DNA of 23,917 nt from positions 1 through 23,917 of IMG/VR virus record IMGVR_UViG_3300008259_000421; one strand, 5' to 3'. The position numbers and the translations under genes were made by a program. Shown here piece by piece: positions 2,995 to 23,917 of the stretch; position 1 is the stretch's first letter, and each line of letters opens with the position of its first letter. This DNA comes from a virus. The notes under the pieces are model-generated. The model was given only the letters and a program-made list of their open reading frames with translations, was not told the DNA's origin and did not search any database.

Positions 2995-4164
2995 TTACTT
3001 AGAATAAAGGTCGCAGATATGTCCTTCAGCGGCGACCGGAATATCCGGTATCCACAGCGGGGGGATGGACATAATCTCCATAATCTTTGCGAGCGCGCTT
3101 TCAGCTTGTGCTTCCGGTACTTCGCAAACCATTTCGTCATGCACGTGTAGGATGACTGGAAAACCAGCGGCGTCAACACGAAGCATCATGTCTGAGAAAA
3201 TATCACGAGCCAGACCTTGAGACAGGTTCTCCGTAAGGATACCACCCCACAAGGGGAAGTCCCGCATCTGTCCGTTACGTACGATCTTGCCGATGTAACG
3301 GAACCGATTGACTGAGCCGATCTCTTTCATCCGCTTAATCTTCCCGTAGCGCAAAGCGCGACCAGACGGAAGCTCAAGCTGAAACGGCTCGCTCACAGCA
3401 CAAGCGGTTGCCATGTCTTGGTCGAGTGAACGCCAGAACTTTGGCACCATAGGCATACGATCACGGTAGAGTTTGACCGCCTTCTCCGCCTCTTCGAGCG
3501 ACATGCCGCTGAACGTGGAGAACTTTGCGGCACCCATGCCATAACCACAGCCCAACGCAATGGCTTTTACTTTGTGCCTCAACTGCTTGTCGTAGTCTTT
3601 CAGTGGTCCGTTGTTAGGATCATGCAGACCCAACAGTACTCCGAACGCGTGATAAATATCGTCAGACTCACGGATAAGGTCGAGAGCTTTATGGTCCTTA
3701 GCGAGCCAGCACAGGGTACGTACTTCGATCTGCGACAAGTCGGCGACAATCAGTTTGTATCCGTCCTTTGGCTTAATCATATGGCGGAAGTTAACGCCGA
3801 ACATCTCGTCCCTCGGAAGGTTTTGTAGGTTGAGGTTTCCGCCGCTACCGCTGAAGCGAGCAGTGGGGTTCGCGCCACAGTACATCAGTCCGCCGTAGTA
3901 TCTTCCGTCGGCCATTGTGCCGTTGTCGAATGCTTCCAGCTTACGGAGGAAGGCGTTGATGCGTCGGTAGTTCTGTACAGCACGTGCCCAAGGACATGCG
4001 TCTTGGAATGCGGCAAACCATTTGTCAGCTTCTTCATTACCGGCAGCGAGTGATGCTGTTACGAGAGAGCGGTGTGTGGTCGCCGATCCACGGGATAGAC
4101 TGCTCTGCATTAAATAATTCAGTACGTATCTGCTCAAGGTTTGTCTTGAGTAGCGTCGTGTCAA
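2995..4164 (-). CDS. DNA polymerase A, polymerase domain (second half, different frame)
   Basis: This open frame holds the complete palm, fingers and thumb of a family A DNA polymerase. Visible motifs are the template-binding TARFSGSGGNLNLQNLP, motif A VADLSQIEVRTL (catalytic Asp), motif B RHKVKAIALGCGYG (O-helix Arg/Lys/Tyr) and motif C HVHDEMVCE (catalytic Asp-Glu). The 3'-5' exonuclease domain is in the overlapping frame just upstream (4037-4726). Residues before about ASLAAGNEEADKW (near 4060) look like out-of-frame translation of the exonuclease gene, so the ATG at 4164 is probably not a natural start. The two frames need a +1 shift to join. Neither a convincing ribosome site nor an in-frame start appears at the junction. 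It is most likely one polymerase gene interrupted by a small deletion or indel, a programmed shift, or a sequence error. The catalytic residues are intact. Confidence 0.85.
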   Translation of the reverse strand: MTRRYSRQTLSRYVLNYLMQSSLSRGSATTHRSLVTASLAAGNEEADKWFAAFQDACPWARAVQNYRRINAFLRKLEAFDNGTMADGRYYGGLMYCGANPTARFSGSGGNLNLQNLPRDEMFGVNFRHMIKPKDGYKLIVADLSQIEVRTLCWLAKDHKALDLIRESDDIYHAFGVLLGLHDPNNGPLKDYDKQLRHKVKAIALGCGYGMGAAKFSTFSGMSLEEAEKAVKLYRDRMPMVPKFWRSLDQDMATACAVSEPFQLELPSGRALRYGKIKRMKEIGSVNRFRYIGKIVRNGQMRDFPLWGGILTENLSQGLARDIFSDMMLRVDAAGFPVILHVHDEMVCEVPEAQAESALAKIMEIMSIPPLWIPDIPVAAEGHICDLYSK

Positions 4165-7033: not shown

Positions 7034-8326
7034 TTACTGTTGCGCGTGAAGCGTGTCCAGAGACAAACGCTTTTGTTCCAACTTGTCAACAATTTTTTCT
7101 TCGATTGTTTTCGACGCCACCAAAACCCTTTGAATTGCAGGACTTTTTGCGTTGGCGCGGTGGATTCGACCTAACGTCTGAATATAATCTTTGACGTTAA
7201 AGGTGGGGGAGATGAGGCTCATCCTCGGATGTCCGCCTTCTGTGTCGTGTAGTGAAACGCCTACGCCTCCGGCTGCGATGTTGCAGATGATGACTCGTGA
7301 CTCATTGGTCTGGAACCGCTGTACATTGGCTTCCCGTTCCACCGCAGATTGTCCACCGACAATGGTACAGGATTCAGGGATCAGGGACTGGATAGCTTTG
7401 ACGGTATCCACAAAGTTTACAAAGATCGCTACGCTGTATCCTTCGGCACAGGCATCGGCTACCATCTCTACGATGTCCGGTACTTTGGCCGCTTCGGCAA
7501 GCTGGCGGGCGCGTAAGATCTCCACAAGAATGTGTGGGCTGGCTCCGCCGTCTTCCATGAATTGGTCTACAATCTCCGGTGTGACGCCGTGGTCTTTGTA
7601 GAACTTGGCGATGTTACCTAACGAGGAGAAGGCTAGTGGCTCGGTGATAACGTGGTTGCTAGTAAACGCAGACGGCAAATCGGATGGCGTGAGTTTAACG
7701 CAGTTAGTCGAGTAGAGTTCTTTATTGAGCGGCACCAGCTTTGCGACTGGTCCGGCTACCCAATTGTTCCAAGGGTCTTTTCTACAGCCGTATTGCATCA
7801 TCCATGAGAACCAGCTTTTAAGTTTGCCGTCCGGCTTATTGAGAGAGTGCAGACCTAAAGCAAAACCCAACGAACGCATTTCTGTGGGGTCTTGGCACGC
7901 TGTCGCTGACAGTAAGAGATTGTACAAACCAGCTTGTTTGGCAGCCACTAGCATCTGGGCGTTCTGACTAAACGGAGATTTGCATTTGTGACACTCGTCC
8001 CATATCAGCAAGGTCTCTTGCGGGAGCTGCCAGCGGAATAGCTTCTTACCGATCTTAGCTAAAAAACTGTTGCCCCTCTTTAGTTTCTCGTAGTTTGTAA
8101 TGAAGAGTGGCGTAACGCCGACCTCTGCAAGTTCGCGCTCCCAATGGGGTATGACGATCTTAGGGCAGATGACGGCTACTGGTAGTTGGGATTCTTTAGC
8201 TACATGACAGGCAATAACTGTCTTACCAACACCAGTATGGCTAGAGTCTAGGGCACAACGACAATGCACCAATGAGCGCAGAATAAAATCAACAGAGCTT
8301 CGTTGTTTCGGGAATAGTGTTTTCAT
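7034..8326 (-). CDS. SF2 DNA helicase/translocase A (SNF2-like)
   Basis: A 430-residue superfamily 2 ATPase. Visible motifs: Walker A TGVGKT (31-36), motif Ia CPKIVIPHWEREL, Walker B/DExH DECHK (110-114), motif III SATACQDPTEMR, and in the second RecA-like domain SVAIFVNFVDTV (motif IV region), NIAAGGVGVSL (motif V) and QTLGRIHRANAKS (motif VI with the arginine finger). The length is that of a minimal two-domain phage helicase without accessory domains. SNF2-like proteins of this type accompany PolA and Cas4-like nucleases in phage modules, where they probably remodel forks or recombination intermediates. The ATG 8326 has a Shine-Dalgarno-like AGGA (CAGGAAACCATG) and overlaps the end of the upstream gene by 38 bases. 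It is clearly paralogous to helicase B at 11650-12945, both beginning MKTLFPKQ. Confidence 0.9.
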   Translation of the reverse strand: MKTLFPKQRSSVDFILRSLVHCRCALDSSHTGVGKTVIACHVAKESQLPVAVICPKIVIPHWERELAEVGVTPLFITNYEKLKRGNSFLAKIGKKLFRWQLPQETLLIWDECHKCKSPFSQNAQMLVAAKQAGLYNLLLSATACQDPTEMRSLGFALGLHSLNKPDGKLKSWFSWMMQYGCRKDPWNNWVAGPVAKLVPLNKELYSTNCVKLTPSDLPSAFTSNHVITEPLAFSSLGNIAKFYKDHGVTPEIVDQFMEDGGASPHILVEILRARQLAEAAKVPDIVEMVADACAEGYSVAIFVNFVDTVKAIQSLIPESCTIVGGQSAVEREANVQRFQTNESRVIICNIAAGGVGVSLHDTEGGHPRMSLISPTFNVKDYIQTLGRIHRANAKSPAIQRVLVASKTIEEKIVDKLEQKRLSLDTLHAQQ

Positions 8327-10287: not shown

Positions 10288-10488
10288 TTACTCGACGCCG
10301 TGATCTTCTAAAAACTCCCGTTTGAACATGGATTCAGTGATATCTGGATGCCATGACAGGTACGTCATTATGGTGCGAAACACGGTGACTAAGTCTTCAA
10401 GCGGTTGGTCTCGCGGCAGCGAGAACTCCAGCTTGCTTCCTTCGTGTGGGATCTCCACAGTGATCTTCATTTGTCGGTCGCGGTTCAT
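10288..10488 (-). CDS. Small hypothetical protein
   Basis: A 66-residue protein, unrecognised, with sequence like KITVEIPHEGSKLEFSLPRD followed by a helix (LEDLVTVFRTIMTYLSW). ATG 10488 overlaps a TGA stop in ATGA form; that stop belongs to the shifted frame of the upstream DUF5664 gene, which supports both the start and the frameshift there. An internal start at 10470 (MKITVEIP) is the alternative. The stop codon sits inside the inverted copy of the GTAATGCGTCA repeat that flanks the tRNA. Confidence 0.7.
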   Translation of the reverse strand: MNRDRQMKITVEIPHEGSKLEFSLPRDQPLEDLVTVFRTIMTYLSWHPDITESMFKREFLEDHGVE

Positions 10489-11098
10489 GAGTTGTACGGG
10501 TCTTGATGTTTGAGGTCACAGTCTTCGCAGATCCAGCCGTACAGCCTTCTTGTTTGATCCAATGCGGAATGTAAAGTGTCATCCAGTCTCCGAAGCCGAC
10601 ATAGACTTCGTCGCCGTCTTTCAGAAGCTCGCCGCTGTTCAGTAGGCGGTATCCCGCTTCGGCCCAATCTTCTTTGATGCTTTCGTCAAGTTCGGTCCAC
10701 AGTCCGTCGTCTTCCTCTTCGTCAAAAAGCCAATCCCAATCGCCGTCTGACTCTTCGACTTCGTTGCACTGACGTGTCGTGTTCCTGTCATCCTGTAACT
10801 TGTTACAGTACTCCGCGTCCATGAGGATGTTCGCGCTACAGGCAATGTGTGCCAGATGCGAGATACCGGATTCAGGGTCCAAGTCTTCGCCGTCGCGCCA
10901 CGCGTTCAAGTGTCGGAGGATTGCGTTGACGTACGTACTAGCGCACACGCCAGTCTCGCGCCAGTTCCATGCTCCGTACTTGTCTGCGCCCAACTTGTGG
11001 ACCCATGCGGTCTGCTCCATTGCATGTGGCGGTATCAAGCCCAATGGGGTTTTGGTAGCGCCGATAGCGCCTTTAGGGTCATTAAATTTCTTTGACAT
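10397..11098 (-). CDS. DUF5664-like dATP/dGTP diphosphohydrolase family protein, frameshifted C terminus
   Basis: The N-terminal 110 residues match the phage DUF5664 pattern: PLGLIPPHAMEQTAWVHKLG, GADKYGAWNWRETG, then AILRHLNAWRDGEDLDPESG and HLAHIACSANILMD. Members are predicted all-alpha nucleotide (dATP/dGTP) hydrolases that adjust dNTP pools. After an acidic linker a second small domain follows (YRLLNSGELLKDGDEVYVG, then WMTLYIPHWIKQE), a common phage appendage. Near 10540 the reading frame looks broken. The annotated frame continues as a low-complexity tail to 10397. The -1 frame instead gives RLYGWICEDCDLKHQDPYNS, with a CxxC pair, and stops at 10485 in an ATGA overlap with the next gene. 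The natural protein therefore probably ends at 10485 and is about 203 residues. A lost base in CAAGAAGG, or a sequencing error, would explain it. Confidence 0.75.
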   Translation of the reverse strand: MSKKFNDPKGAIGATKTPLGLIPPHAMEQTAWVHKLGADKYGAWNWRETGVCASTYVNAILRHLNAWRDGEDLDPESGISHLAHIACSANILMDAEYCNKLQDDRNTTRQCNEVEESDGDWDWLFDEEEDDGLWTELDESIKEDWAEAGYRLLNSGELLKDGDEVYVGFGDWMTLYIPHWIKQEGCTAGSAKTVTSNIKTRTTHEPRPTNEDHCGDPTRRKQAGVLAAARPTA

Positions 11099-11649: not shown

Positions 11650-12945
11650 TTACTCGCCGTGAATTGCCTGTAGGTTTTCCGTCTTTATTCGGATTGCTTT
11701 CATTACGGTTTCTTCGATCGTGCCAGCCGCGACAAGCACTTTTTGGAGTGCGTCCGACTTGGCTCCGTTGCGGTGTATCCGGCCCAACACTTGCAAGTAA
11801 TCCTTGGCGTTAAAGGTTGGGCAAATAAGTGAGATACGCGGCCTCTCCCCACGTGTGTCGTGCAGAGACAGGCCAGTCCCGCCAGCCGCGATATTGACGA
11901 CGATGCAGTTGACGACGTCGTTCTGGAAGTCGTCGATCGCTTGCTGTCTTTGAACGGCGTTCTGGTTGCCGTCGATCTTTGGGCAATTCAATAGGCCGCA
12001 GAGAGCGTTTACCGTATCTGTGAAGTTCACGAAGATGACGACGCTGTTGCCGCCGCTGATGAAGTCCTCAGCCATCTCGACGATGTCCGGCACTTTGAAC
12101 GACTCTGCCAGCTGGCGGGCTTTGAGTATGTTTACCAGAATGTGCTCGCTGTTTGAAACGGTTCCGTTGAGAATATACTCGTCGATGATGGCTGGCGTGA
12201 TGCCCAACTGCTCGTAGGCTTTGTCGATCTTCTTGATGTCTTTGAACTCCGTCGGCTCGACGAAAACACGGTTGTCTCGGAAGCTGTCCGGAAAGTCTGC
12301 TACTGTAAGTTTGTTGCAATTGACTCCGTACATCATGTTGCGGAGCAAAGCCAGCTTTGTCTTAGTCGCCAGCTTCCATCCGCCCCAATCGTCCTGATAG
12401 CATCCGTACTGCATCATCCATCCGTACCAGCTACGTAGTTTGTTGTCCGGCTTGTTAAGAGAGTGAAGCCCCAATAGGTATCCCAACGCCCGCATCTCCG
12501 TAGGGTCTTCGGCAGCGGTGGCGGACATGCCGTGTACGGAGTAGCTCTGCTGTACCAACGAAACCACAAGTTGGGCGTTCAAAGTATACGGCCCTTTGCA
12601 TTTGTGGATCTCGTCTACGAGCACCAATGTGTCGGCTGGCAGGGACCAGCGCATGATCTTCTTGCCGACTTTGGAAAGCCATTTGGTTTTGCCGCCACGG
12701 ATCTTCTCGAAGTTCGTAACGAACAGCGGAGTTATTCCGTGTTCCGTCAGCTCTCGTTCCCATGACGGGACAACCGCTTTCGGGCAAAGTACAGCGACAG
12801 GCTTTCCGAAATCTCTGGCCAGATGGACCGCCACAACTGTTTTGCCAGTGCCGACGCTTGAGCTGTCAAGCGTGTTGACTTTATTTTTGTGACAGCAGAG
12901 AAAAAATTCTTTGGCGTCATCTTGCTTCGGGAATAGTGTTTTCAT
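11650..12945 (-). CDS. SF2 DNA helicase/translocase B (SNF2-like), paralogue of helicase A
   Basis: A 431-residue superfamily 2 ATPase with all motifs: Walker A VGTGKT (31-36), CPKAVVPSWEREL (Ia), Walker B as DEIHK (111-115), SATAAEDPTEMR (III), SVVIFVNFTDTV (IV region), NIAAGGTGLSL (V) and QVLGRIHRNGAKS (VI). It aligns end to end with helicase A (7034-8326), sharing MKTLFPKQ at the start, WERELTEHG-type segments and LGLHSLNKPD. The DExH box differs (DEIH against DECH), and so do the linker and the C terminus. Both copies retain every catalytic residue, so neither looks decayed. By family it would translocate on duplex DNA during replication or recombination. The ATG follows a dyad-rich leader (12957-12979) and has no strong Shine-Dalgarno. 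Confidence 0.9.
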   Translation of the reverse strand: MKTLFPKQDDAKEFFLCCHKNKVNTLDSSSVGTGKTVVAVHLARDFGKPVAVLCPKAVVPSWERELTEHGITPLFVTNFEKIRGGKTKWLSKVGKKIMRWSLPADTLVLVDEIHKCKGPYTLNAQLVVSLVQQSYSVHGMSATAAEDPTEMRALGYLLGLHSLNKPDNKLRSWYGWMMQYGCYQDDWGGWKLATKTKLALLRNMMYGVNCNKLTVADFPDSFRDNRVFVEPTEFKDIKKIDKAYEQLGITPAIIDEYILNGTVSNSEHILVNILKARQLAESFKVPDIVEMAEDFISGGNSVVIFVNFTDTVNALCGLLNCPKIDGNQNAVQRQQAIDDFQNDVVNCIVVNIAAGGTGLSLHDTRGERPRISLICPTFNAKDYLQVLGRIHRNGAKSDALQKVLVAAGTIEETVMKAIRIKTENLQAIHGE

Positions 12946-12994: not shown

Positions 12995-13273
12995 TTAATC
13001 CTCAAAAATTTCATCTTCAGGGTCGGCCCACGACATGAAGGCCGGAGTGTTTTCGCCTACCCACGCGCCTTCCACGTTGTAGTAGAAGTATTCGAGAGCG
13101 TCCTCTTCCGTCATCTCTCTGGCGAGGATCTCGATACACTTCTCAAAACTGTATACGGCAAAGGGCTTACCGAACTGGCGGGCGATGCCCATGAACGCTT
13201 CTTCAAAGCCATCTGCAAGGATGACTTCTTCTTCGTCGTCAAGGCACTGTTCAAGTGTTTTTGGGATATCCAT
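12995..13273 (-). CDS. Small conserved phage protein
   Basis: A 92-residue acidic protein (MDIPKTLEQCLDDEEEVILA, then FEEAFMGIARQFGKPFAVYS, EDALEYFYYNV, GAWVGENTPAFM). The ADGFEEAxxGxxRQFxxPxxVY and NVEGAWVGExTPxF pattern is found in many uncharacterised phage and bacterial small proteins. Function is unknown. ATG 13273 is chosen because it opens the conserved region and overlaps the resolvase gene by 23 bases; the longer frame up to 13372 would be out-of-frame resolvase sequence. ATACTAGACAACGTT precedes the start. Confidence 0.75.
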   Translation of the reverse strand: MDIPKTLEQCLDDEEEVILADGFEEAFMGIARQFGKPFAVYSFEKCIEILAREMTEEDALEYFYYNVEGAWVGENTPAFMSWADPEDEIFED

Positions 13274-13748
13274 AACGTTGTCTAGTATACTGTGCAATGA
13301 GGAAAGCGTCAACGACGCCGTCATGCGGCACGGTGCAGCGGTTGTTCTTGCGCCAGTCCTCATCCGGAGCAAGTTCGTTTGCTTTCTTCAAAGCAAAGAC
13401 TTTTGTATGTGATTTAGGCACTTTGCCTAACAGAGACTTCTGCCAGTCCAGAACTTGAATCGGCTGGACTTTGAGCTTGTGGGACTCACACATGCCGAGG
13501 ATCTTGCCGTACGAGATCCCCATCGACCGCATCGCTTGAGATGACTTTGCATGCTTCAGGGGTTCCTCAATCCCGATTAAGGATTCAGTGTTCAGGTCAG
13601 TGATCCAGTCGTAAATGATTTCGGTATCAACTTCCCGCTTGCCAGCCCGTTCAAACGTTGGCATCGCCCACTTGTCGATGATGGATCCGTTGTGCGCTGA
13701 TATGGCACAAAGTCCGCCGTCGAGTCCGTTGTCGATGCCGATGATCAT
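13251..13748 (-). CDS. RuvC-like Holliday junction resolvase
   Basis: A 165-residue protein with an RNase H-like fold signature. D6 lies in IIGIDNGLDGG (usually IDPGxxG), E61 in LIGIEEP, and D143/D147 in VPHDGVVDAFLIAQY; together these are the four acidic metal ligands of RuvC-type resolvases. The length matches phage and bacterial RuvC. It would cut four-way junctions formed during phage replication and recombination, leaving DNA suitable for packaging; its place immediately upstream of the terminase genes fits. It starts with ATGA overlapping the end of the preceding gene. The Asn in place of the usual Pro in the first motif is a small deviation outside the catalytic residues. Confidence 0.85.
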   Translation of the reverse strand: MIIGIDNGLDGGLCAISAHNGSIIDKWAMPTFERAGKREVDTEIIYDWITDLNTESLIGIEEPLKHAKSSQAMRSMGISYGKILGMCESHKLKVQPIQVLDWQKSLLGKVPKSHTKVFALKKANELAPDEDWRKNNRCTVPHDGVVDAFLIAQYTRQRYGYPKNT

Positions 13749-14023
13749 TTACGATTGTAGGACAAGCCGTCGATAATTTCAGTCCGGACAATGACTCCGT
13801 TGCCTTTTGCGGGAGCCCATTTATCGACGTACTTTTCCAACGATGCCAGAAAGAATACCTCTCTCGCATTGGTCGGGATAACACGGTAATACGTTCCGCG
13901 CAGTTCCATAGGATCGAACGCGTAGTCGTCCACAGTAACCATCTTTCGTTTTTTGATTACTTCTGGATTTTTGCTTTCGATCCGCATGTGGAATTTAATT
14001 GGGCTGTTGTGTAGTTCAATCAT
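13745..14023 (-). CDS. Small hypothetical protein
   Basis: A 92-residue basic protein, unrecognised. It has beta-like segments (MIELHNSPIKFHMRIESKN, GTYYRVIPT, REVFFLASLEKYVDKW) and ends IIDGLSYNRK. The chosen ATG 14023 overlaps the last eight bases of the small-terminase-like gene; an upstream ATG at 14050 would extend further into it. The stop overlaps the resolvase start, so it is in a coupled cluster of packaging and resolution genes. Function unknown. Confidence 0.66.
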   Translation of the reverse strand: MIELHNSPIKFHMRIESKNPEVIKKRKMVTVDDYAFDPMELRGTYYRVIPTNAREVFFLASLEKYVDKWAPAKGNGVIVRTEIIDGLSYNRK

Positions 14024-14693
14024 CGTTTTGTTCTTCGTTTGGGATGTCAATTACTGTTGTTGCTTTTTTCTTTATCCTGACAGCTCCGTCGCCGCGATCG
14101 GCTTCGGTGTTGTTGAGGATGGAAATATCGATGTGCATCTTGCTCTGGCTCCCGTTCTTGGAATTGAGTCCCAAGTTGCGGCGGATCAGCTGGTCGAGTT
14201 CTGATAGCTCTCTCACGGTCCTCGGCCCACGGAGATTCTTCATGCTGTCGCGCATCAGCTTCACGCCAGCGGCGGCGATGTAGTGCTGGTACTTATCGGC
14301 TGGAGACGACTGCGCCTCCGCGATTTCAAGGATATTCTTTTCTTCTTCCAGCACGGCGTCGTGCATTGCTAACCTGACGGCTTCGCCAGTCTTGTGCTTG
14401 AGGTCTTCCTCCAATGTGTCGGCCAACGGATCTACTGGCTCCGCGTCCGGATCGGCGATAGACGAAAAGCCGTCCGGCCTCTTCCGGATTCCTGCTTCCC
14501 GAATCCATTTATGGATAGTAGCTGTGCTGACCTTTAGATCTCTAGCGATCGAAGTGACCATGTAGTCCTGCTGGTACAGCTCCAGCCCACGCGCTTTGAG
14601 ACGTGCGGACTTATCTGCGATCTCGGCTCTGGACTGCTTGGGCTTGCTTTTTATGCCCTTTTTCTTTAGTTGATTTTTTGTGTTGCTGCTCAA
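14016..14693 (-). CDS. Terminase small subunit-like DNA-binding protein
   Basis: About 225 residues with an N-terminal helix-turn-helix: the segment VTSIARDLKVSTATIHKWIR is a standard HTH of the kind found in small terminases and resolvase-like DNA-binding proteins. Helical regions follow (LADTLEEDLKHKTGEAVRLA, then KYQHYIAAAGVKLMRDSMKN), suitable for oligomerisation, and a C-terminal basic tract (RIKKKATTV). Its position head-to-head with the large terminase supports the assignment. No ATG is available at the right place: TTG 14693 gives MSSNTKNQLKKKG and GTG 14702 is the alternative, whereas the first ATG at 14855 lies deep inside the large terminase on the other strand. The start is therefore uncertain. 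Confidence 0.68.
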   Translation of the reverse strand: MSSNTKNQLKKKGIKSKPKQSRAEIADKSARLKARGLELYQQDYMVTSIARDLKVSTATIHKWIREAGIRKRPDGFSSIADPDAEPVDPLADTLEEDLKHKTGEAVRLAMHDAVLEEEKNILEIAEAQSSPADKYQHYIAAAGVKLMRDSMKNLRGPRTVRELSELDQLIRRNLGLNSKNGSQSKMHIDISILNNTEADRGDGAVRIKKKATTVIDIPNEEQNDD

Positions 14694-14720
14694 GATGAAC
14701 ACAGTTAAGATCAGCCAACC

Positions 14721-14739
14721 AAAAAATTCAAGAAATTTT
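14721..14739. repeat. AT-rich dyad in the divergent terminase spacer
   Basis: AAAAAATT, CAAGA, then the A/T mirror AATTTTTT forms an eight-base-pair AT stem (about 14721-14741). It lies in the roughly 55-base spacer between the divergent small and large terminase genes. The core TTCAAGAAATTTT recurs at 9930-9942, and a near match (TTTCAGAAATTTT) is next to the helicase B stop at about 11639-11651. No standard -35/-10 promoter is evident here. Confidence 0.45.
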
Positions 14740-14748
14740 TTCTGAAAA

Positions 14749-16539
14749 ATGACAAATAAATCTAATCTGGCGCGAAACGTTTTGGAGCCGCGCATCGATC
14801 CTGTATCCAAAAAGATGGACGTCGGCGGCTTGTTCATCAAGCCAACGAACCTCATAACGGCCTTACTCTACGGATTCGCCCAACACGACAGGCCGATGGC
14901 AAAGGAGTATTATTTCTGGCGGATCTGCGACGAGCTATGGAACAACGACGACCTTCCGGAGAAGCTGATGGTCCGCCATCCGTGGGCAGATCGGATGATC
15001 AAGAACGCGATCCGCAATAAGTATCTCGCCGTCGGTGGTTCAGCGTCTTCCGGAAAGTCCCACACGATGGCGGCTTGGGGTCTTGTGAACTTCCTCTCAC
15101 AGCCGCAGAATACTTTGATCCTTGTAACCAGTACCACGCTTCGGGAAGCACGGAAACGGATCTGGGGTTCCATCATCTCGCTCCTTACGGTGGTCGAGGA
15201 TGCACCAATCAAGATTCGGGATTCAATCGGAAACATCGCCTACATCAACGAGAAGGGAGACCTTATCGAGAAAGCTGGCCTCTCGCTTATCGCGGCGGAG
15301 AAGAGCAAGACACGGGAAGCGGTCGGCAAGTTTATCGGTATCAAGCAAAAGCGGGTCATCGTCATCGCAGACGAGCTTTCGGAACTATCGGAGGCGATCC
15401 TCAACGCTGGTCTGACCAACTTGTCCAAGAACCCTGATTTCCAGATGATCGGGATGAGCAACCCCAACAGCCGATTCGATGCGTTCGGCGTCTGGTCTCA
15501 GCCGAAAAGCGGGTGGGACTCGATCGACGCACAGATCGACGACGAGTGGGAAACGAAGTGGGGCGGGAAGTACATCCGTCTGGACGGCGAACGCTCGCCT
15601 AATATTCTGGCTGGAGAGACCATCTATCCTTGGCTGCCAACTGAGGCTAAACTGGCAGAGGACAGGGCTTTGCTTGGACCGGAATCTCGCGGCTACATGC
15701 GGATGGTTCGCGCCGTGTTCTTCGACTCCGAAGAGACGGAAGGGATCTACTCCGAGGCGGAGCTGGCCAGAAGCGGTTCCCTTGGAAAGGTGCAGTGGGT
15801 CGGGAAGCCAATCGCGGTTGCGGGGCTCGATCCGGCCTTTACCAATGGCGGCGACAGAACGATTCTCTATACCGGAAAGGTTGGCTACGACACGAAGGGC
15901 CAATACGTCTGCGAATTGGGGGATGCGATCCACCTAAACGACGACGCCACAAACAAAGCCATTCCGCGTACATACCAGATTGTCAAACAGGTTAAGGACC
16001 ACTGCGAGAAGCGTGGCATCTTGCCAGAGAATCTGGCGGTTGACTCGACTGGTGCTGGAGCGCCTTTCTGTGACGTGCTTGCCGGAGAGTGGTCTTCTGG
16101 ATTCCTCCGTGTTGGATTCGGCGGGAAGGCTTCCGACAAACGGGTAAGCGCCAACAGCAGTCTGGTCGGGGAGGAACTCTACGTGAACCGTGTATCCGAA
16201 CTCTGGTTCGTCGGGAAGGAACTAGTCCGTACCAAACAGCTGTTTGGGATCAGCGGAGATCTGGCCCAAGAGATCTGTGCCCGTAACTACGAGCTGGTCA
16301 AAGGCGGCACGCTCCGTGTGAAGATCGAATCGAAAGCAGATTTCAAGTCTCGCTTCGGTCGTTCGCCCGACTTAGCGGACGCGGCGTTCCTCTGTCTCGA
16401 CATGGCCCGCCAGAGGCACGGAGTGGTGGCTGTAGAGCCGTTGCCGGAAAGCTCGGCTAACGGGTTCCAGAAAAGGGGTACGACGTTCCAGTCTTTGCGG
16501 AACGCCCTCTCGTCGGAGATGTCGATGGCTCTGGATTAA
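14749..16539 (+). CDS. Terminase large subunit
   Basis: A 596-residue packaging motor. ATPase motifs: Walker A GGSASSGKS (96-104), Walker B VIVIADE (203-209) and a coupling segment IGMSNPNSR (about 234-242). Nuclease domain: D361 in VAGLDPAFTNGG, D432 in LAVDSTGAG and D541/D544 in RSPDLADAAFLCL, the three-acid RNase H-like centre that cuts concatemeric DNA. The length is normal. Start ATG 14749 opens a typical N terminus and has an A-rich leader without a Shine-Dalgarno. It pumps DNA into the prohead with the small subunit. The gene is followed by a palindromic non-coding region before the next late gene. No missing residues are seen. Confidence 0.95.
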   Translation: MTNKSNLARNVLEPRIDPVSKKMDVGGLFIKPTNLITALLYGFAQHDRPMAKEYYFWRICDELWNNDDLPEKLMVRHPWADRMIKNAIRNKYLAVGGSASSGKSHTMAAWGLVNFLSQPQNTLILVTSTTLREARKRIWGSIISLLTVVEDAPIKIRDSIGNIAYINEKGDLIEKAGLSLIAAEKSKTREAVGKFIGIKQKRVIVIADELSELSEAILNAGLTNLSKNPDFQMIGMSNPNSRFDAFGVWSQPKSGWDSIDAQIDDEWETKWGGKYIRLDGERSPNILAGETIYPWLPTEAKLAEDRALLGPESRGYMRMVRAVFFDSEETEGIYSEAELARSGSLGKVQWVGKPIAVAGLDPAFTNGGDRTILYTGKVGYDTKGQYVCELGDAIHLNDDATNKAIPRTYQIVKQVKDHCEKRGILPENLAVDSTGAGAPFCDVLAGEWSSGFLRVGFGGKASDKRVSANSSLVGEELYVNRVSELWFVGKELVRTKQLFGISGDLAQEICARNYELVKGGTLRVKIESKADFKSRFGRSPDLADAAFLCLDMARQRHGVVAVEPLPESSANGFQKRGTTFQSLRNALSSEMSMALD

Positions 16540-16611
16540 GGGTTCAGGGTTCCCGATCGGGATCTTATGTGCCGCTCATGTGCAGTTGTGGCGTAAATGT
16601 GCCAGATCGGT

Positions 16612-16625
16612 AATGTATTTACATT
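16612..16625. promoter_or_regulatory. Dyad operator-like site 1
   Basis: AATGT ATTT ACATT, a perfect five-base inverted repeat with a four-base spacer. It forms the left end of the large palindrome. Confidence 0.55.
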
Positions 16626-16765
16626 GTGGTTTGATTGCCTGTTTGGACCCCCTACTTGAAAACTTTCTATAGAATAGAATAAACCGTTTGCTCTATAGCT
16701 CAAACTGTTTAATAGAGTTTAGAAAAAGTTTTTATATAGGGTTCTTGTAAGGGCAATCAAACTAC

Positions 16766-16779
16766 AATGTAAATACATC
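16766..16779. promoter_or_regulatory. Dyad operator-like site 2
   Basis: AATGT AAAT ACATC, one mismatch from the consensus AATGT-N4-ACATT. It forms the right end of the large palindrome and lies 10 bases before the -35 element at 16790. Confidence 0.5.
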
Positions 16780-16789
16780 AATAAAAATA

Positions 16790-16818
16790 TTGACATCCAG
16801 AGCCGAAGAATGTACATT
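16790..16818 (+). promoter_or_regulatory. Sigma70-type promoter ahead of gene 16827
   Basis: The -35 is TTGACA (16790-16795), followed by a 17-base spacer and the -10 TACATT (16813-16818, four of six). The -10 is part of the perfect palindrome AATGTACATT (16809-16818), so a protein bound there would block the promoter. The gene's ATG begins eight bases after the -10, implying a transcript with almost no leader. Confidence 0.6.
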
Positions 16819-16826
16819 GTAATCAC

Positions 16827-17120
16827 ATGGCTGCTCCACGATTTAAGAGACTATCTTCCGGTCAGATCCAATATATGGGAGAGAAGTACGCTGGCTTTAA
16901 TAAGCCGAAGAAGGCACCAGCTGGCTCTCCAAAGAAGTTTGTAGTTTTGGGTAAGGAAGGTGACAAAGTCAAAAAGGTCTCTTTTGGCGCGAGAGGCTAC
17001 GAGGATTATACCCAACACAAAGACCCCAAAAGGCGGGCCAACTTCCGGTCTAGGCACAGCTGCCAGACGGCAAACGACAAGACGACAGCCCGCCATTGGG
17101 CATGCAAACATTTGTGGTGA
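16827..17120 (+). CDS. Small basic conserved phage protein (DUF5754-like)
   Basis: A 97-residue strongly basic protein. It contains RFKRLSSGQIQYMGEKYAGF, then KKFVVLGKEGDKVKKVSFGA, YTQHKDPKRRANFRSRHSC and RHWACKHLW. The HKDPxRRxNFRxRH followed by Cys and a C-terminal WxCxxLW is a recognisable signature of small proteins found in many large and medium phages next to virion genes. It resembles DUF5754, though I cannot confirm the family from sequence alone. The basic charge and paired Cys/His (C80, C93, H79, H94) suggest nucleic-acid or metal binding. It is the first gene after the regulatory palindrome, under its own promoter. A second promoter follows its stop. Confidence 0.75.
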   Translation: MAAPRFKRLSSGQIQYMGEKYAGFNKPKKAPAGSPKKFVVLGKEGDKVKKVSFGARGYEDYTQHKDPKRRANFRSRHSCQTANDKTTARHWACKHLW

Positions 17121-17121
17121 T

Positions 17122-17156
17122 AATGTATTGACATTGGCTGACCGCTAAAATAAAAT
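17122..17156 (+). promoter_or_regulatory. Promoter overlapping dyad site 4, ahead of gene 17164
   Basis: The -35 TTGACA (17128-17133), a 17-base spacer and the -10 TAAAAT (17151-17156) make a strong consensus match. The -35 is embedded in the dyad AATGT ATTG ACATT (17122-17135), the fourth member of the site family. The ATG lies only seven bases after the -10, again predicting a leaderless or nearly leaderless mRNA. Confidence 0.65.
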
Positions 17157-17163
17157 CAATTTT

Positions 17164-18534
17164 ATGGCCGATTCCGATTTTATTGCTGCTTTTAATAAAA
17201 GATATTCAGATAGTGGGTTTGACCCCCAATATCGGCGAGACGTAGGGGAAAAAATAAGCAATCTCGTTGCGGCGGCAAAAAATGTTGCTGGAAAAAAACG
17301 TTCAAAATTTCGTCAAACTGGAGCGGGTCAATTTGATCCAAAAACTAATATCCGTGCTTCTAAAGAACAATTACGTACAGAAAAACAATTTCAGGATTAT
17401 GACGCTATGCGGGAAGAACTCGCTGGTTTCATTTCTGGCAATGTGTACGATCGCGGGAAGAAGCCAAATATGCAGGAAGCTAGGGATATTGTTGACAGTT
17501 TTTCGAAAAGTCAACGCGAGCAGCATCTTACCGCTGCTGGAAAAACAATGCCCAGAATCGCTTTGCCACCCCAATCATCAAGTGCCCCATCGACAATAGA
17601 AAAGGGAACCTCTGATTTTTCTAGCTTAGAGGGAGTAGCGCCATCTTCTTTCTCACCGTCTCCAATCAACTACCGTTCAAGTGAACCCGATCCATTGGAG
17701 AAAAGAAAACTCCTCGCTGAAGAACTCCGCCAATTCGCTGCGGGCAAGTCAAAAGAAACAGCGCAATCCTTGAAAGAACAAGGCGGAGAGATTGGGGTAA
17801 CTCCCACGCAGCTTTCTAATTTGTACAAACAGTACAAAGCAGAATCAGAAAAAGGTCCGACAAAGCTGGACGGAGGGTCCACGTTTGAACAGGAAGAGGA
17901 ACAAGCACGTGCACGTTCTAAAGCCTCTGGAGCTTTCGGCGGAGATGATTGGCGTGGCCGTTCTTCAGCTAATTCTGTATCAACCCCCAACTTGGATCAG
18001 TATGCGAGTGACGCGTTCGGCGCTCGCCCGATGGGCAGTGAACGGAGAATGATTACTTCTCCGGAAGGACAGATGCGCCTGATGGCACGGAAAGCTGCAA
18101 GAGCTGGTATCGACGTTGGCCAGTTGATCTCTGCTACCAAAGGAGATGTTATGGCAGCTTTCGGCGAGCTTGAGGCTTCCGGCTTAGGAGCAAGAGGAAT
18201 CCGGTCTCAGGAAGAGGTGAGAGCCCGTCCAGAGTTGGCGTCGCAGCTACGTGAATCAAGAGCAAACTTGCTGAAACAACAAGCAGAAGAGTTTCGCAAA
18301 GCGGAAGAAGAGCGTATTGCAAAAGAAGAAGCAGACCGCAAAGAAAAAGAGCGTCTCGCGAAAGAGGAAGAAGAGCGTAAAGAGAAAGAGCGTCTCGCGG
18401 CGGAAAAAGAGGGAGACATTACCGCGCAACGGGGGGTGGGAGAGTTAGCAAATACTAACTCAAGACCGTCGAGGGATTCCTCACCGCGATTAGCAAATCC
18501 CAATTCAAGACCTACAAACCCAAATAGGGCCTAA
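17164..18534 (+). CDS. Charged, coiled-coil probable virion protein
   Basis: A 456-residue hydrophilic protein of no recognised family. The N-terminal 120 residues are basic and helical; a Ser/Pro-rich linker follows (about 130-175, SSSAPSTIEKG, SSFSPSPIN). A central helical domain includes PLEKRKLLAEELRQFAAG and MRLMARKAARAGIDVGQLIS. Residues about 370-420 form a highly charged coiled coil with a 13-residue repeat (RKEKERLA twice). The tail has a 15-residue tandem repeat (LANTNSRPS and LANPNSRPT). There is no signal peptide or membrane span. Its place between the small basic protein and the giant protein suggests a minor capsid, scaffold or internal virion role, but nothing proves this. Its start resembles that of the next gene (MADSDF and MADFDY). 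Confidence 0.75.
   Translation: MADSDFIAAFNKRYSDSGFDPQYRRDVGEKISNLVAAAKNVAGKKRSKFRQTGAGQFDPKTNIRASKEQLRTEKQFQDYDAMREELAGFISGNVYDRGKKPNMQEARDIVDSFSKSQREQHLTAAGKTMPRIALPPQSSSAPSTIEKGTSDFSSLEGVAPSSFSPSPINYRSSEPDPLEKRKLLAEELRQFAAGKSKETAQSLKEQGGEIGVTPTQLSNLYKQYKAESEKGPTKLDGGSTFEQEEEQARARSKASGAFGGDDWRGRSSANSVSTPNLDQYASDAFGARPMGSERRMITSPEGQMRLMARKAARAGIDVGQLISATKGDVMAAFGELEASGLGARGIRSQEEVRARPELASQLRESRANLLKQQAEEFRKAEEERIAKEEADRKEKERLAKEEEERKEKERLAAEKEGDITAQRGVGELANTNSRPSRDSSPRLANPNSRPTNPNRA
18337..18512 (+). repeat. Short tandem repeats in the C-terminal coding region
   Basis: Two 24-base units encoding RKEKERLA (18337-18360 and 18376-18399, 39-base period) are followed by two 23-base units encoding LANxNSRP (18445-18467 and 18490-18512, 45-base period, differing at three positions). 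Both are in frame, consistent with tandem duplication inside the gene. Confidence 0.75.
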
Positions 18535-18552
18535 AGGTCAAAATAAAATATT

Positions 18553-19578
18553 ATGGCCGACTTCGATTACTCCAATGATATCGCTCCCTTGAAGGGAAAC
18601 TATTTCCGTGACAAGTATTCCGGAAGTACGATGTCTCAAGATGAGCGTCGCGGACTTGAGCTTATGGAACTCAAAGAGCTTGAGAGACAAAATGCAATTG
18701 CACTCGACACAGCTAAGATCTCCAACAGCTTGAGGACTTCCGAACTCGCCTTCCGCGAACAGTCGTTATCTCTGGAAAAACAAAAGAACGAGTTCAAGAA
18801 CCAACGCGATGCGTTGCTCGCTCTTCCGGAAGTTACGAAACGACTTACTCAAATCAAAGAAGATCCCGAACTAGACGACACACAAAAACTTGTGCGCTCT
18901 GCCGAACTTCAATCCGAATTTGCTGGTCCGGCGACATATAGTCCTGAAACTAAAAATCTTTTTACTGCGTTTGATAACTCTATTAAAGTAAAAAGCGCCG
19001 AACGCGACCGCTCTGACAACTTGGCATTCACTCTGATTCAAAGGGGCGAGACCGACGCCGCCAAAAAACTCTTGGAAGGCCGCGCCGACCAATCAGCTGG
19101 CCAGCTTATTGCCGCCTCCGATGCTGTCGCCGCTTCAATGAAAAAAGAAGCGGAGCAGAAAGGGTCCATCAAACAGCAGGAGATCGAGCAAGAGCAGAAC
19201 AAAGCGATGCTTACTGCGCGTGTCTCGATGCTGAATAACTACATGTCTGATATCAAAGACATAAAGCCGCCGAAGCCCACAGCAGACGAGCTTGAAATCG
19301 GAACCCTTGGCGGCGATGGCAAGACCTCAGCCCTCCCAAAAGTTGAGCCAATCAAATACTCCAAGGAACAAAAGATCCGACTCCAGACTATCGTCGGAAA
19401 TATCTATGACAATGTAGATGAGAAAGTCCTTCTCGGACTGTCGGACGAAGATCTGTACAAAGCAGCCTACGACGGCACAACTGGAGAGCTAGAAGCACTA
19501 GCCGGATTCAAATCATCCTTCAAGACCAAATCACAAGACAATCTCAAAAACAAATTCCGGAGCAACAAAACGGAATAA
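18553..19578 (+). CDS. Helical probable virion protein
   Basis: A 341-residue protein, unrecognised and largely helical. Long heptad-like stretches run from about residue 30 to 90 (ERRGLELMELKELERQN, then FREQSLSLEKQKNEFKNQ) and 180 to 225 (ASMKKEAEQKG, IKQQEIEQEQNKA). A Pro-rich loop (IKPPKPTADELE) precedes a C-terminal helical domain. There are no cysteines or membrane spans. The protein could be an internal or ejected virion protein lying before the giant one. The leader AAAATAAAATATT before ATG closely copies the leader of the gene at 17164, and both proteins begin MAD-x-D. Confidence 0.72.
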   Translation: MADFDYSNDIAPLKGNYFRDKYSGSTMSQDERRGLELMELKELERQNAIALDTAKISNSLRTSELAFREQSLSLEKQKNEFKNQRDALLALPEVTKRLTQIKEDPELDDTQKLVRSAELQSEFAGPATYSPETKNLFTAFDNSIKVKSAERDRSDNLAFTLIQRGETDAAKKLLEGRADQSAGQLIAASDAVAASMKKEAEQKGSIKQQEIEQEQNKAMLTARVSMLNNYMSDIKDIKPPKPTADELEIGTLGGDGKTSALPKVEPIKYSKEQKIRLQTIVGNIYDNVDEKVLLGLSDEDLYKAAYDGTTGELEALAGFKSSFKTKSQDNLKNKFRSNKTE

Positions 19579-19606
19579 TACTAACAACCAATAACCAGTG
19601 TCTGCT

Positions 19607-22600
19607 ATGTCAGAGCTTAATAAACTAATCAGAAAAGATCCCGAATTCCTGCCACTCGAAGACTGGAGGAAGGATAACGATTCCGGAGACGAGATCAAAA
19701 ATCGTAAGGAATACTCCAACTATGTTCGCAGCCAATATGTGGATGCCGGAATGTGGGATAACGAGATCGCTAGCGAGATCAACCAGTTTACCTATGAAGG
19801 TGCTGTTGAAGATGGAGTTCTGAAAGAGGACGACGAAGAGAAAAAAGCCGCTCTACTAGCTCCAGAAGAAACAGATCTCGACACAAAACTTCAAATGGTC
19901 CAGTCCAATCTGGACTTCGACACTCCAGCTTGGCAAGCCGCGACTAAATATCTTACATTCAAGAAACAAAATCCTGAGGGCGTAGAGGTACCAGAAGAGA
20001 TCCGTTTGCAGGGCGAGCAGTATCTCGCAGATGCACAGGCGGTAGCAGATACGGAATACAACACCGCATTGAGGAACGCTGTCCGTAGTGGCGAACTTCC
20101 GCTTGCTAAAGTCAAAAACGCGGACGGAGATTTTGACATTCTCGTTTCCCCGACCTTTGGTGATATGTCAGCCGGAGAGGCTATCCGCGCCAGCAAGAGG
20201 GGCGGCGTCTCTTTCGAGGATGCGACAGCGGTACAGTCCAAACTCTCTACTCCAGTTGGCTTTAATGAGCCGATGTATAAAGTTGAAAGGTATAGACAAG
20301 CGGGTTCCGCAATTGAAGAACTGGCAAAGAAAGATAACCACCTATCCAAGATTATCCAGCGATACACTGAACAACTTGTCGCCGCAGACGAAGAGGGTCG
20401 CGCTCCGGCAGAGCATGAGGAGTACGCATCGATGATCAGTTATCAGATCAATAAGAGTGGCGTGCTTCCGGATAAAGAAGCTGTTACGAACGAAGAAGTC
20501 TCAAAGGCGCTGACGCAAATTGTTTACAACAATGCGAATTCTGGCGGCATGTTCAAGCTCTACGATAAGCCAGAAGAGGCTTACAAGAATGTTCGTAACG
20601 TTGGGTATGAAGCCCCCTTTGTTCACTCTTCCGCGATATTGAACGACGATCTGTTTGAGAAGTCTGTCCTCAACAACCCCAATCTTTCCGACGATCAGAA
20701 AAAGATTATCGAAGCTCGCCGCGAGCCAATGATCCAACAGCAGTTTGTTCAGATTAACAATCTCCTTTCCAAGTCGTCGATGTCTGACGAATGGCTCAAC
20801 ACCCTTCAAGCTGGTCGGGTCAACGGAAAGAAAGACTCCGACATCGCAAGAGAGTTTGTTTCTAATCCAGATAACTTTAACGAGATCGGAGACCGCATAT
20901 CCGGAGTCGTCGGTTCAATCGCCGATGGATTCGGTGAGATGGTCGCCGCTGTTCCAATGATGATGGGAGCTGATTGGGCTCGCGACTACATGATCGGCAA
21001 CATCAAAGAGCGCAGTGACCGTAAGGAAGTTGCTAATCTTTTCGGTGTTGAGTACGGCATTTTCCAAGAAACCGCCGAAGCAATCGCTCCAATGTTGGTA
21101 GACATCGGAGCCACAACACTTCTAGCTGGCCTCACTGCTCCAGCAGCTGGAACTGGCGGAGCGTTGTATCTCTCATCAAAGCAAGGCGCTCGTCTCACAG
21201 CAAAGGGAATGCTCAAGTCGATGACTTCTAACGCTCTTAGGCAGTTGCCGACGGAGACCGCTGAAGAAGCAGCAGAAAGACTTGTTGCACAGAATCTTAT
21301 CAAAGCATCTACAGCGGAAGCGGGCATCAGCGGAGCGCAAGCCGCGATCAAAGGATTTAACAGCCAGCTTGTGAAACAGGTTGGTCTTGCTCCGGCTATA
21401 GCCCTTCCGGCATTCAACCGTTCCGCTGGATCAACATACGCGTCGGTCTACTCGACCCTCGACGGCGACAAAGATCTTACAGCAGAGCAAAAACACGATA
21501 GGGCCCTTGGAGCAGCACTTACCAGCGGAACCATTACCGCCGCTATTACTACAGGATTCTCAGCGTTCGGTCGCGGCGGTATCGAGAACGCTCTCCTCGG
21601 CGGGGCTTCCCGCAAGCAAGTCAAAAACATCATGGCCCGCCTCGCCAACGTTGATGACATCCCCGATGACGTGTTCAATGGAGTTGTTGCAAAACAACTT
21701 TCTGATACGATGAAAAAATATGCGTTTAAGACCAGTAAAGAAATTGGCAGAAACGCTTTTGATGAAGGTGTTGAAGAAGGTCTCGACCAATTCATTAACT
21801 CATTCGTTTCAGACTCTGCCACAGATCAAGATACCCCGCTTCTCGAAAGGCTTGAACAAGCTGGTCGTGCGGCTCTGATCGGTGGCATGATCGGCGGCGC
21901 TGTCCCCGCTGTCAAAGCGGCGAAGAATGCAGTGATGCAAAGCAGCGACATTGGATCGCAGATAGCTGTAGAAACTAACTTCGCTAAAGGGGTTAGCCAA
22001 AAACTTACAGAAGCCGGAAGCCCTCTTACAGCACAGACCGTTTACAGTATCCTCACAGCTCCGAGGCGAACACGCGCCCCAATTGCTAAAACGATTCTCG
22101 ACGCCTCTCGTCAGCAAGCTGCTGAAACTACAGTAGAAGCCACAACAGAAGCCACAGCAGAATTGCCAGAAGTTAAAGACGCCACAGAGCCAGACATCGC
22201 TCTGACTCCGGAACGCCTTACCGAAACCCTTAACAACATAGTATCTCCAGATACTGTCGCCAAAGCCATCGTCGATGAGCGTGGCCAATCTCAATTTAGT
22301 TTCGTTGAAGACATCCCGTTGACCGAAGTTGCGAAACGTGGCCGCACCGTTCGCAAGCCAACCGGATCCACCGATCCTGTATCCCAACAACTGGAATTTG
22401 ATTTCACCGCAAAGCAGGAAAACAAAGTACAAGATCAGCTCGATCTCGGACTCGACGTCCCCGCTGCCGACGCACCGAAAGTAAAGGTCAAGCGTTCCGC
22501 CACTGTCAACAAGAGTATAAAGAAAGCCAAGCTGGCCGAACAACTCGGACTCGACTTCGATAAGGAAGCTACCGATGAGCAGAACAACCACATCGATGCG

Positions 22601-23917
22601 AACTATTCGGACGAAGATCTTACCGATCAAGAGCGTCAAGAGATCCAGAACGAGCTTGCGGAACAACAAGCCGCGACCCAACAGTTGGAAGTTCCTACGC
22701 CGAAAGGCAAAAAGGCTGTTAAAAATGTCTCTGCCCAAGCCACCGCAGCTCCGGCAAAGCCAGCCGCTAAAGCTCCGAAGGCACAGCCAATCGCCCAACT
22801 TCCTGTCGCCGACGAGCCAATGTTTGCTTCGGACGAATTCATCGACGACGAACTAATCGGCCAAGAGGTTAGCGCGATGACGAAGATTGCCACCTTCGGT
22901 TATCCTGTTCGCCTTGAGCGCAAAGCTCTACACGGAATGCCACAACGCGGCAAGTATCCTAAAGGATATCTCGCTGGTAAATCCGACATGGTCGCTCGCA
23001 AAGTTAACGAGCTTTATCCAGTCAGCATGCCGACGGATGTTATCGCCGCTGATGAGATTACTGGAAAAGATAAAGTTTCTTACTACGACCCACAAGCCAA
23101 GAAGGTCGTCCGCAAAGCGCCGAAGGCTTTCGTCGATGAGAACGGAGTCGGTATCTTTAACAACGATCCCGTTTCCATGAAGCTGTTGCTCGACCGCCGT
23201 ATTCCGGTTGTCATTCCCGAATCCTTTACCGGAACCCTTAACCCGTCTTTCCGGACGCGAGCTTCCGGAGGAATGCAGTTCCTTAACGATATCGTTATGA
23301 CGAATCCCGAATCCGGAACCGGATTCGTGTCTGTCCTTACCAAGCAAGACAAAGTCATTTCGGGAGAGCCCAACTACAAGTACTACGAAAACCTGTCCAC
23401 GTTCACAGCTCTGTTCAACGAAGGCGTCGCAGAACGCACTGTTCCCGATCCGAAAGGCAAGGCAGCTGACGTTACTGTCGCCAGCATTATCCAAGACGCT
23501 GACCAGCTTTATATCACCGCATCTACAGATAGGCCAACCAGCGCGTACGGAGATCCCGATAAGGCGCGTGCCACCCTTCGGTCTATCCTGAAGCCGAGAC
23601 AAGGAACCCTTGAGCGGGAGTTCCTTGAAGCCGCTATTCCGGCGTTTAACATGTCTGTCCGCAAGGAGGCTTACCTACACGAACTCCGCCTCGGAATGGA
23701 CAAGTTCGCCGAGCGCAAGTCCGGCGAGGCAACACCGACACTTAAAGCCAACAAGATTGGAGAAGCTGTTGCAGACTTTGTTTCGCGTACCAAAGTTGAC
23801 AAAGTTACGGCGGCCAAAAATATCGCCAAAGTATTCGGTTCCGACATCAATCCTGAGGCACAGCCTGACTTGGTAATTGAAAAATTCATCGAGGACACAG
23901 TTCTTACAAGACGCCCG
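19607..23917 (+). CDS. Giant virion-associated or polyvalent protein (N-terminal part)
   Basis: An uninterrupted frame of 1,437 codons that runs off the end of the window. It starts with ATG 19607 (MSELNKLIRKDPEFLPLEDW), preceded by AATACTAACAACC, another leader-motif instance. Residues 1-420 are acidic and helical. Hydrophobic stretches lie at about 440-455 (VAAVPMMMGADW), 492-520 (IAPMLVDIGATTLLAGLTAP and on), 634-650, and 753-773 with glycine-zipper spacing (AALIGGMIGGAVPAVKAA). A Thr/Ala/Glu segment (about 840-855) and a Lys/Ala/Pro linker (about 1038-1070) separate domains. Three QLxLxL/F-like hexapeptides lie at 928-984. Residues after about 1100 are a mixed alpha/beta region. Giant phage proteins with Gly-rich membrane-active segments are typically carried in the particle and ejected with DNA. 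I see no catalytic motif, and the rest of the protein is outside the window. Confidence 0.85.
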   Translation, partial: MSELNKLIRKDPEFLPLEDWRKDNDSGDEIKNRKEYSNYVRSQYVDAGMWDNEIASEINQFTYEGAVEDGVLKEDDEEKKAALLAPEETDLDTKLQMVQSNLDFDTPAWQAATKYLTFKKQNPEGVEVPEEIRLQGEQYLADAQAVADTEYNTALRNAVRSGELPLAKVKNADGDFDILVSPTFGDMSAGEAIRASKRGGVSFEDATAVQSKLSTPVGFNEPMYKVERYRQAGSAIEELAKKDNHLSKIIQRYTEQLVAADEEGRAPAEHEEYASMISYQINKSGVLPDKEAVTNEEVSKALTQIVYNNANSGGMFKLYDKPEEAYKNVRNVGYEAPFVHSSAILNDDLFEKSVLNNPNLSDDQKKIIEARREPMIQQQFVQINNLLSKSSMSDEWLNTLQAGRVNGKKDSDIAREFVSNPDNFNEIGDRISGVVGSIADGFGEMVAAVPMMMGADWARDYMIGNIKERSDRKEVANLFGVEYGIFQETAEAIAPMLVDIGATTLLAGLTAPAAGTGGALYLSSKQGARLTAKGMLKSMTSNALRQLPTETAEEAAERLVAQNLIKASTAEAGISGAQAAIKGFNSQLVKQVGLAPAIALPAFNRSAGSTYASVYSTLDGDKDLTAEQKHDRALGAALTSGTITAAITTGFSAFGRGGIENALLGGASRKQVKNIMARLANVDDIPDDVFNGVVAKQLSDTMKKYAFKTSKEIGRNAFDEGVEEGLDQFINSFVSDSATDQDTPLLERLEQAGRAALIGGMIGGAVPAVKAAKNAVMQSSDIGSQIAVETNFAKGVSQKLTEAGSPLTAQTVYSILTAPRRTRAPIAKTILDASRQQAAETTVEATTEATAELPEVKDATEPDIALTPERLTETLNNIVSPDTVAKAIVDERGQSQFSFVEDIPLTEVAKRGRTVRKPTGSTDPVSQQLEFDFTAKQENKVQDQLDLGLDVPAADAPKVKVKRSATVNKSIKKAKLAEQLGLDFDKEATDEQNNHIDANYSDEDLTDQERQEIQNELAEQQAATQQLEVPTPKGKKAVKNVSAQATAAPAKPAAKAPKAQPIAQLPVADEPMFASDEFIDDELIGQEVSAMTKIATFGYPVRLERKALHGMPQRGKYPKGYLAGKSDMVARKVNELYPVSMPTDVIAADEITGKDKVSYYDPQAKKVVRKAPKAFVDENGVGIFNNDPVSMKLLLDRRIPVVIPESFTGTLNPSFRTRASGGMQFLNDIVMTNPESGTGFVSVLTKQDKVISGEPNYKYYENLSTFTALFNEGVAERTVPDPKGKAADVTVASIIQDADQLYITASTDRPTSAYGDPDKARATLRSILKPRQGTLEREFLEAAIPAFNMSVRKEAYLHELRLGMDKFAERKSGEATPTLKANKIGEAVADFVSRTKVDKVTAAKNIAKVFGSDINPEAQPDLVIEKFIEDTVLTRRP

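Follow-up and report, generated by a model that had tools for sequence, protein, structure and literature searches.

Palindrome downstream of the terminase gene

The window, meaning the whole stretch of DNA analysed, is an IMG/VR record of 23.9 kb. It contains a 166-bp imperfect palindrome (positions 16613-16778, centre 16695.5), placed between the gene for the terminase large subunit (TerL; 14749-16539, plus strand; PHROG phrog_2, E 2.6e-12) and the first gene past the palindrome, which encodes a 97-aa DUF5754 protein (16827-17120, plus strand; Pfam PF19058, E 3e-15). The outer arms are 27 nt each. The left arm, ATGTATTTACATTGTGGTTTGATTGCC (16613-16639, plus strand), starts with a ATGTAnnTACAT dyad, and the right arm (16752-16778, minus strand) is its reverse complement at 26 of 27 positions. 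An inner block of 46 nt (16650-16695 against 16696-16741) is 72% complementary and has its centre in common with the outer arms. Aligned with its own opposite strand, the palindrome matched at 72% over 166 nt (E 3.3e-22), confirming a sequence-only reading that had described a concentric palindrome of this length. The ATGTAnnTACAT dyad occurs in both arm ends, and the window holds three instances in total with at most one mismatch, against 0.25 expected by chance.

Inside the outer arms is a family-wide core (16648-16741, plus strand), delimited by comparison with L023-L037, L043 and L060 and with the second copies in G001-G042. It is composed of CCCCC, AAAACTTT, a hairpin and AAAAAGTTTTTATATAGGG. 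The left boundary, AAAACTTT (16659-16666, plus strand), is conserved and flips in relatives, and the right boundary, AAAAAGTTTTTATATAGGG (16723-16741, plus strand), is conserved together with a TATA and a G run. The inner hairpin has a lineage-specific left arm, TAAACCGTTTG (16680-16690, plus strand), with one mismatch to its partner CAAACTGTTTA (16701-16711, minus strand) in the window copy; compensatory variants of this hairpin were found in G001, G010 and L128.

The region 16600-16790 folded to -70.9 kcal/mol as RNA (z -9.55) and to -37.2 kcal/mol as DNA (z -7.94). None of 200 shuffles was as good in either case, which answers the folding check proposed in the sequence-only reading. A scan of 16000-17500 detected no intrinsic terminator within 16540-16826. 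The terminator reading was rejected: the hairpin is A/T-rich and its T's begin only about 15 nt past the stem, whereas an intrinsic terminator has a stem rich in G+C with a T run immediately behind it. The earlier claim that the repeats are not independent terminators was upheld: they form a single structured non-coding element, with a shared centre and compensatory changes in relatives. A search of Rfam recovered tRNAs only and no match for the palindrome.

Promoters near the palindrome

The gene at 16827 is preceded by a sigma70-like promoter (TTGACA-17-TACATT; 16790-16818, plus strand), which ends 8 nt before the start codon and would produce a leaderless transcript. An extra copy of the outer-arm motif (16805-16821, plus strand) overlaps its -10 region and is 82% complementary to 16763-16779. 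Another outer-arm-like motif, AATGTATTGACATTGGC (17122-17138, plus strand), overlaps the -35 of the next gene's promoter (17128-17156), and in the window motifs related to the outer arm overlap the promoters of both gene 16827 and gene 17164. The operator-like dyads that had been noticed at the arm ends are present and resemble this nearby promoter sequence. In L017, the outer arm agreed at 18 of 21 positions with the -35 side of the promoter that lies downstream (0 of 2000 shuffles). The same likeness had p values of 0.0005-0.0015 in L009, L012 and L015 and of about 0.02 in the window, and it was weak in L014, L016, L019 and L021 (p 0.08-0.13). Among the matches to consensus sigma70-like promoters in six genomes, 20 of 24 ended -2 to 12 nt from a start codon. 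Judging from these positions, leaderless mRNAs look common in the phage group.

Distribution among post-terminase relatives

A TerL search recovered 59 loci. Where TerL was at least 81% identical and the contig extended beyond it, a palindrome, mostly of 157-166 bp, was found directly past the TerL stop. Among these loci the outer motif TGTATTTACATTGT was constant and the inner arms differed; L015 had a variant left outer arm. The outer 27-bp arms were confined to this clade, which is that of the window, and scanning IMG/VR as a whole for the pair of outer arms yielded 16 stretches, all of them in contigs already recovered via the TerL locus. More distant relatives had no outer arms and kept the core, represented by CCCCC, AAAAAGTCTT or AAAACTTT, a lineage-specific hairpin, AAAACACTTTT or AAAGTTTTT, TATATA and a G run. 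The expectation in the sequence-only reading that relatives with the same flanking genes would carry the dyad held only in part. G028, G033 and G036 lack it past TerL and keep the second-site hairpin, and L038 and L039 have nothing palindromic after TerL.

In L007 (about 3190-3250), 24 nt are absent from the palindrome centre and most of one inner arm is gone, through either a real variant or an assembly slip. Within each of the pairs L017/L018 and L014/L016, the intergenic regions are near-identical up to the start codon and the genes that follow differ, so that a mosaic breakpoint coincides with the palindrome.

The complete 166-bp palindrome was absent from an 84,980-species genome collection (bacterial and archaeal genomes). 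Four TerL relatives were found in MAGs labelled Opitutae (two), Blastopirellula and Altibacter, labels that do not identify a host. Searches of 50,697 phage records with TerL, the SF3 helicase, the portal-like protein and NUMOD4 detected no cultured relative. DUF5754 matches in Roseobacter, Pelagibacter and Flavobacterium phages were rejected as relatives because their gene neighbourhoods differ, as was HTVC027P, whose similarity was distant only.

A second copy of the core

On long contigs, the lineage-specific hairpin recurs in a second copy of the core, usually about 21-25 kb downstream of the first. It is beyond the reach of the window and was seen in relatives only. The usual arrangement had one core copy ahead of each of two structural gene blocks; 27 further contigs were paired using the portal-like protein and a TerL alignment (more than 580 stretches). 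In G001, circular by a 123-bp end repeat, copy 1 precedes an operon that encodes a giant protein of 4261 aa. Minus-strand genes separate this operon from copy 2, which is followed in turn by genes for a NUMOD4-like protein, a portal-like protein, tail fibres and an amidase. The name “portal-like” reflects position only, as the protein matched no family. Contigs run through both palindromes, which, together with the end repeat of G001, argues against hairpin genome ends of the N15 telomere type. The suggestion that the palindrome is a packaging site was not supported, since it occurs twice, at sites separated by many kb.

Departures from this layout were G028, G033 and G036, which have copy 2 only, though the first structural operon is present. 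G016 has three core copies in one contig (188-262, 21815-21889 and 60923-60997). The second copy was often found within a gap of 0.35-1.2 kb between called genes. Tandem repeats of 34, 30 and 15 bp adjoin it in G013 (L077:2677-3334), and multiplied palindromic repeats occur near the second-site region in G037 (13022-19915) and G022 (33229-38114).

Consensus promoters were not enriched on either side of the second copy. TTGAC or TTGAT was present 28-29 nt before the start of the NUMOD4-like gene in several lineages. In most genomes tested, low-mismatch matches to the arm motif fell mainly in the two elements (8 of 8 in G017; 4 of 4 in each of G006, G007 and G011), and shorter arm motifs had some low-mismatch matches elsewhere in G001 and G013. 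The outer and inner arms share a motif in G017 and, for TTACATTG, in the L013 clade.

Evolution of the arms

Compensatory changes, which the sequence-only reading had proposed to look for in relatives, were found in both the outer arms and the inner hairpins. In the window's clade the outer arms had a covariation score of 0.226, against 0.103 in shuffled alignments, with 26 double-change cells and none of 500 shuffles as high. The covarying positions are in the inner part of the arm; 12 of the 27 outer pairs are invariant and are therefore uninformative on covariation either way. Pairing in the outer arms was lost when the partner was shifted out of register in the alignment. The inner hairpins of different clades could not be brought into register by MAFFT, and they were therefore counted by hand-anchored arms. 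Across 19 types, 203 of 209 cells were Watson-Crick and none was G-U, a count that overstates perfection because the inner arms were picked for good pairing. A scan neutral to mismatch type found 80 G-U pairs against 120 A-C mismatches; the element copies are related and not independent, so no p value is attached to these counts. Selection on a plus-strand RNA would have given more G-U than A-C, and the opposite was observed, so that no RNA signature was seen.

The two copies were compared in 18 genomes, with 12 matching best in direct and 6 in inverted orientation. Inversion was clear in G017, G018, G037 and G042, modest in G020 and marginal in G021. In G042, reverse-complementing the 75-bp core from one copy exactly reproduces that of its counterpart, and inversion of the core is near-exact in G018, G017 and G037. 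Between L014 and L016 the loop is inverted. The core palindrome is thus conserved as a structure, not as a sequence, and occurs in matching pairs.

Template switching in inverted repeats is known to homogenise the arms and invert the spacers (PMC8604942). We infer that this process accounts for the changes within a copy, and that the copies must in addition undergo exchange for their match across 24 kb to be explained. Our elements resemble template-switch-maintained hairpins and quasipalindromes (PMC8604942, PMC8794818) in their homogenised arms and inverted spacers, and differ from them in that the matching extends to a pair of distant copies.

Candidate protein partners

In at least 39 of 45 loci, the stretch from copy 2 to the portal-like gene encodes a NUMOD4-like, DNA-binding-like protein roughly 150 aa long (examples are L076:2980-3438 and L074:1611-2087). 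Its model (pLDDT 86) has two repeats, and the second resembles residues 1-82 of the HNH homing endonuclease I-HmuI (1u3e; Z 8.8, rmsd 2.1, 69 residues). A Foldseek search of PDB with the whole model gave no significant match, and I-HmuI was found only on a second look. Matches in a viral library were NUMOD4/HNH proteins, no Pfam family was matched and no catalytic or nuclease domain was recognised. The protein thus shares the NUMOD4 fold of I-HmuI and differs from it in having two NUMOD4 domains in tandem and no recognised catalytic HNH domain.

With TerL controlled for, none of the proteins tested was a clear partner of the hairpin motif by covariation (NUMOD4-like protein -0.085, SF3 helicase 0.105, and the best, an SF2 helicase, 0.21), so no sequence-specific partner was identified. 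The phages also encode a DUF5906 SF3-type (D5-like) helicase, and the window has a gene for a RuvC-like resolvase (13251-13748).

The window holds the start of the giant late protein (19598-23917; G001:36840-49625), which ranges from about 2650 to 6300 aa across the group. It carries a metalloprotease motif (HEYTH-like) and is matched in part by structural proteins and by proteins annotated as ADP-ribosyltransferases. A hairpin promoter for a virion RNA polymerase, as in N4, was considered and gained no support: the giant protein had no RNA polymerase match among families or in PDB and no recurrent motif B, and it resembles the proteins named above, although a distant polymerase could escape such sequence tests.

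Function of the palindrome pair

The position of the palindromes ahead of both structural operons, the occurrence of the arm motif mainly within them, the promoter-like outer arms and the lack of an RNA signature together favour a control site in DNA. The pair most likely acts as such a site for the late genes; its arms change fast yet stay complementary and matched between sites. The specific proposal that the palindrome is a DNA-level operator or promoter element controlling both structural operons is tentative, and we give it somewhat less than an even chance. In this proposal a DNA-binding protein of the phage, either dimeric or with two domains, would sit on the nested inverted half-sites, perhaps with the palindrome extruded as a cruciform, and when bound would switch the two late operons together. 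By its position just past copy 2 and its fold, the double-NUMOD4 protein would be a candidate for this role. Template switching during replication would keep the arms of a copy perfect while inverting its centre, and exchange between the two copies would keep them alike; the observed arm matching and flipping fit template-switch repair combined with such exchange. However, with TerL controlled for, no protein tested shows clear covariation with the hairpin motif, consensus promoters are not enriched around the second copy, the likeness of outer arm to promoter is weak in L014, L016, L019 and L021, and G028, G033 and G036 have the operon without the first copy.

The late-promoter activator sites of P2 and P4 are Ogr/delta dyads of fixed sequence (TGT-N12-ACA) upstream of several late operons. 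They are similar to the palindromes in being dyads that coordinate structural genes from ahead of several late operons. Unlike them, the palindromes are larger, nested, paired and hypervariable in their arms, and an Ogr-type protein was not found. We could not assign the palindromes to any known system. A regulatory site whose shape and likeness to a distant twin outlast its sequence would be unusual. The pair makes recognition by shape or by matching a testable question, and it is a recognisable landmark for a large phage group, of which the 50,697 phage records contain no cultured member.

A pair of replication origins is possible but unlikely. An initiator, for example the DUF5906 primase-helicase, would load on the palindromes, with the second copy as an accessory site. 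The satellite phage P4 offers a parallel in its replication sites ori and crr. Two distant repeat-bearing sites and an SF3-type primase-helicase are common to P4 and the present genomes; the palindromes differ in being perfect hairpins at structural operons. Paired sites with lineage-specific repeats, the frequent gap around the second copy, the adjoining tandem repeats in G013 and indifference to orientation would all suit an initiator site. However, both copies head structural operons and not replication genes, some genomes have a single copy, and the SF3 helicase does not covary with the motif. GC skew tracks gene strand and does not single out either site, a confounded measure.

We also consider it unlikely, and slightly more so, that the palindromes specify a structured leader RNA ahead of both structural operons, such as a nut- or put-like antitermination site, an RNase site or a terminator. 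The stems of nut sites are lineage-specific, as are those found here. The RNA fold is strong, and the conserved hairpins head two operons in each genome, like the paired put sites of HK022 (PMC9378689) and the nut sites of lambda. Those elements act as RNA, whereas here the cores flip between copies, the substitutions are not of RNA type (more A-C than G-U overall, and no G-U in the inner-arm cells, a biased sample) and no Rfam family matched. Moreover, the promoter of gene 16827 is downstream of the palindrome, so its transcript would not contain it, and promoters are not enriched to the left of the second copy. The long regulatory RNA hairpin suggested in the sequence-only reading is disfavoured by the same mismatch counts and inverted cores.

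Recombination or cruciform resolution, in which a RuvC-like resolvase or a recombinase acts on extruded palindromes and exchanges or flips segments, appears improbable. It would account for the inverted cores in G042, G018, G017 and G037, the inverted loop between L014 and L016 and the shift in gene content right past the palindrome in L017/L018 and L014/L016, and a RuvC-like gene is present. An equally improbable extension is that the self-matching, hypervariable pair is an active site at which a Holliday-junction resolvase opens extruded palindromes, flips cores and homogenises both sites; module exchange or late expression would then be linked to how far the two sequences are identical, and not to a set recognition motif. 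However, no contig had the segment between the copies inverted, a comparison that requires close relatives, and the matches in L159 were DUF5754 on the same strand. No recombinase was identified in the subset of genes searched. Spacers can also be inverted by template switching alone (PMC8604942).

A selfish palindromic repeat or MITE-like element sitting there by chance is highly improbable: it would explain the AT-rich, terminal-inverted-repeat appearance and the multiplication of palindromic repeats around the second site of G037 and G022, but both positions are conserved across very divergent phages, and the complete 166-bp form occurs in IMG/VR only in contigs known for the post-terminase position and nowhere in the 84,980-species collection.

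Other genes in the window

Two SF2 helicase paralogues are encoded on the same strand (7034-8326 and 11650-12945), with up to 75% DNA identity, and both find one and the same homologue in G001. A protein with a dATP/dGTP diphosphohydrolase domain (10397-11098, minus strand; PF18909, E 2.6e-31) may be relevant to nucleotide pools or modified bases.
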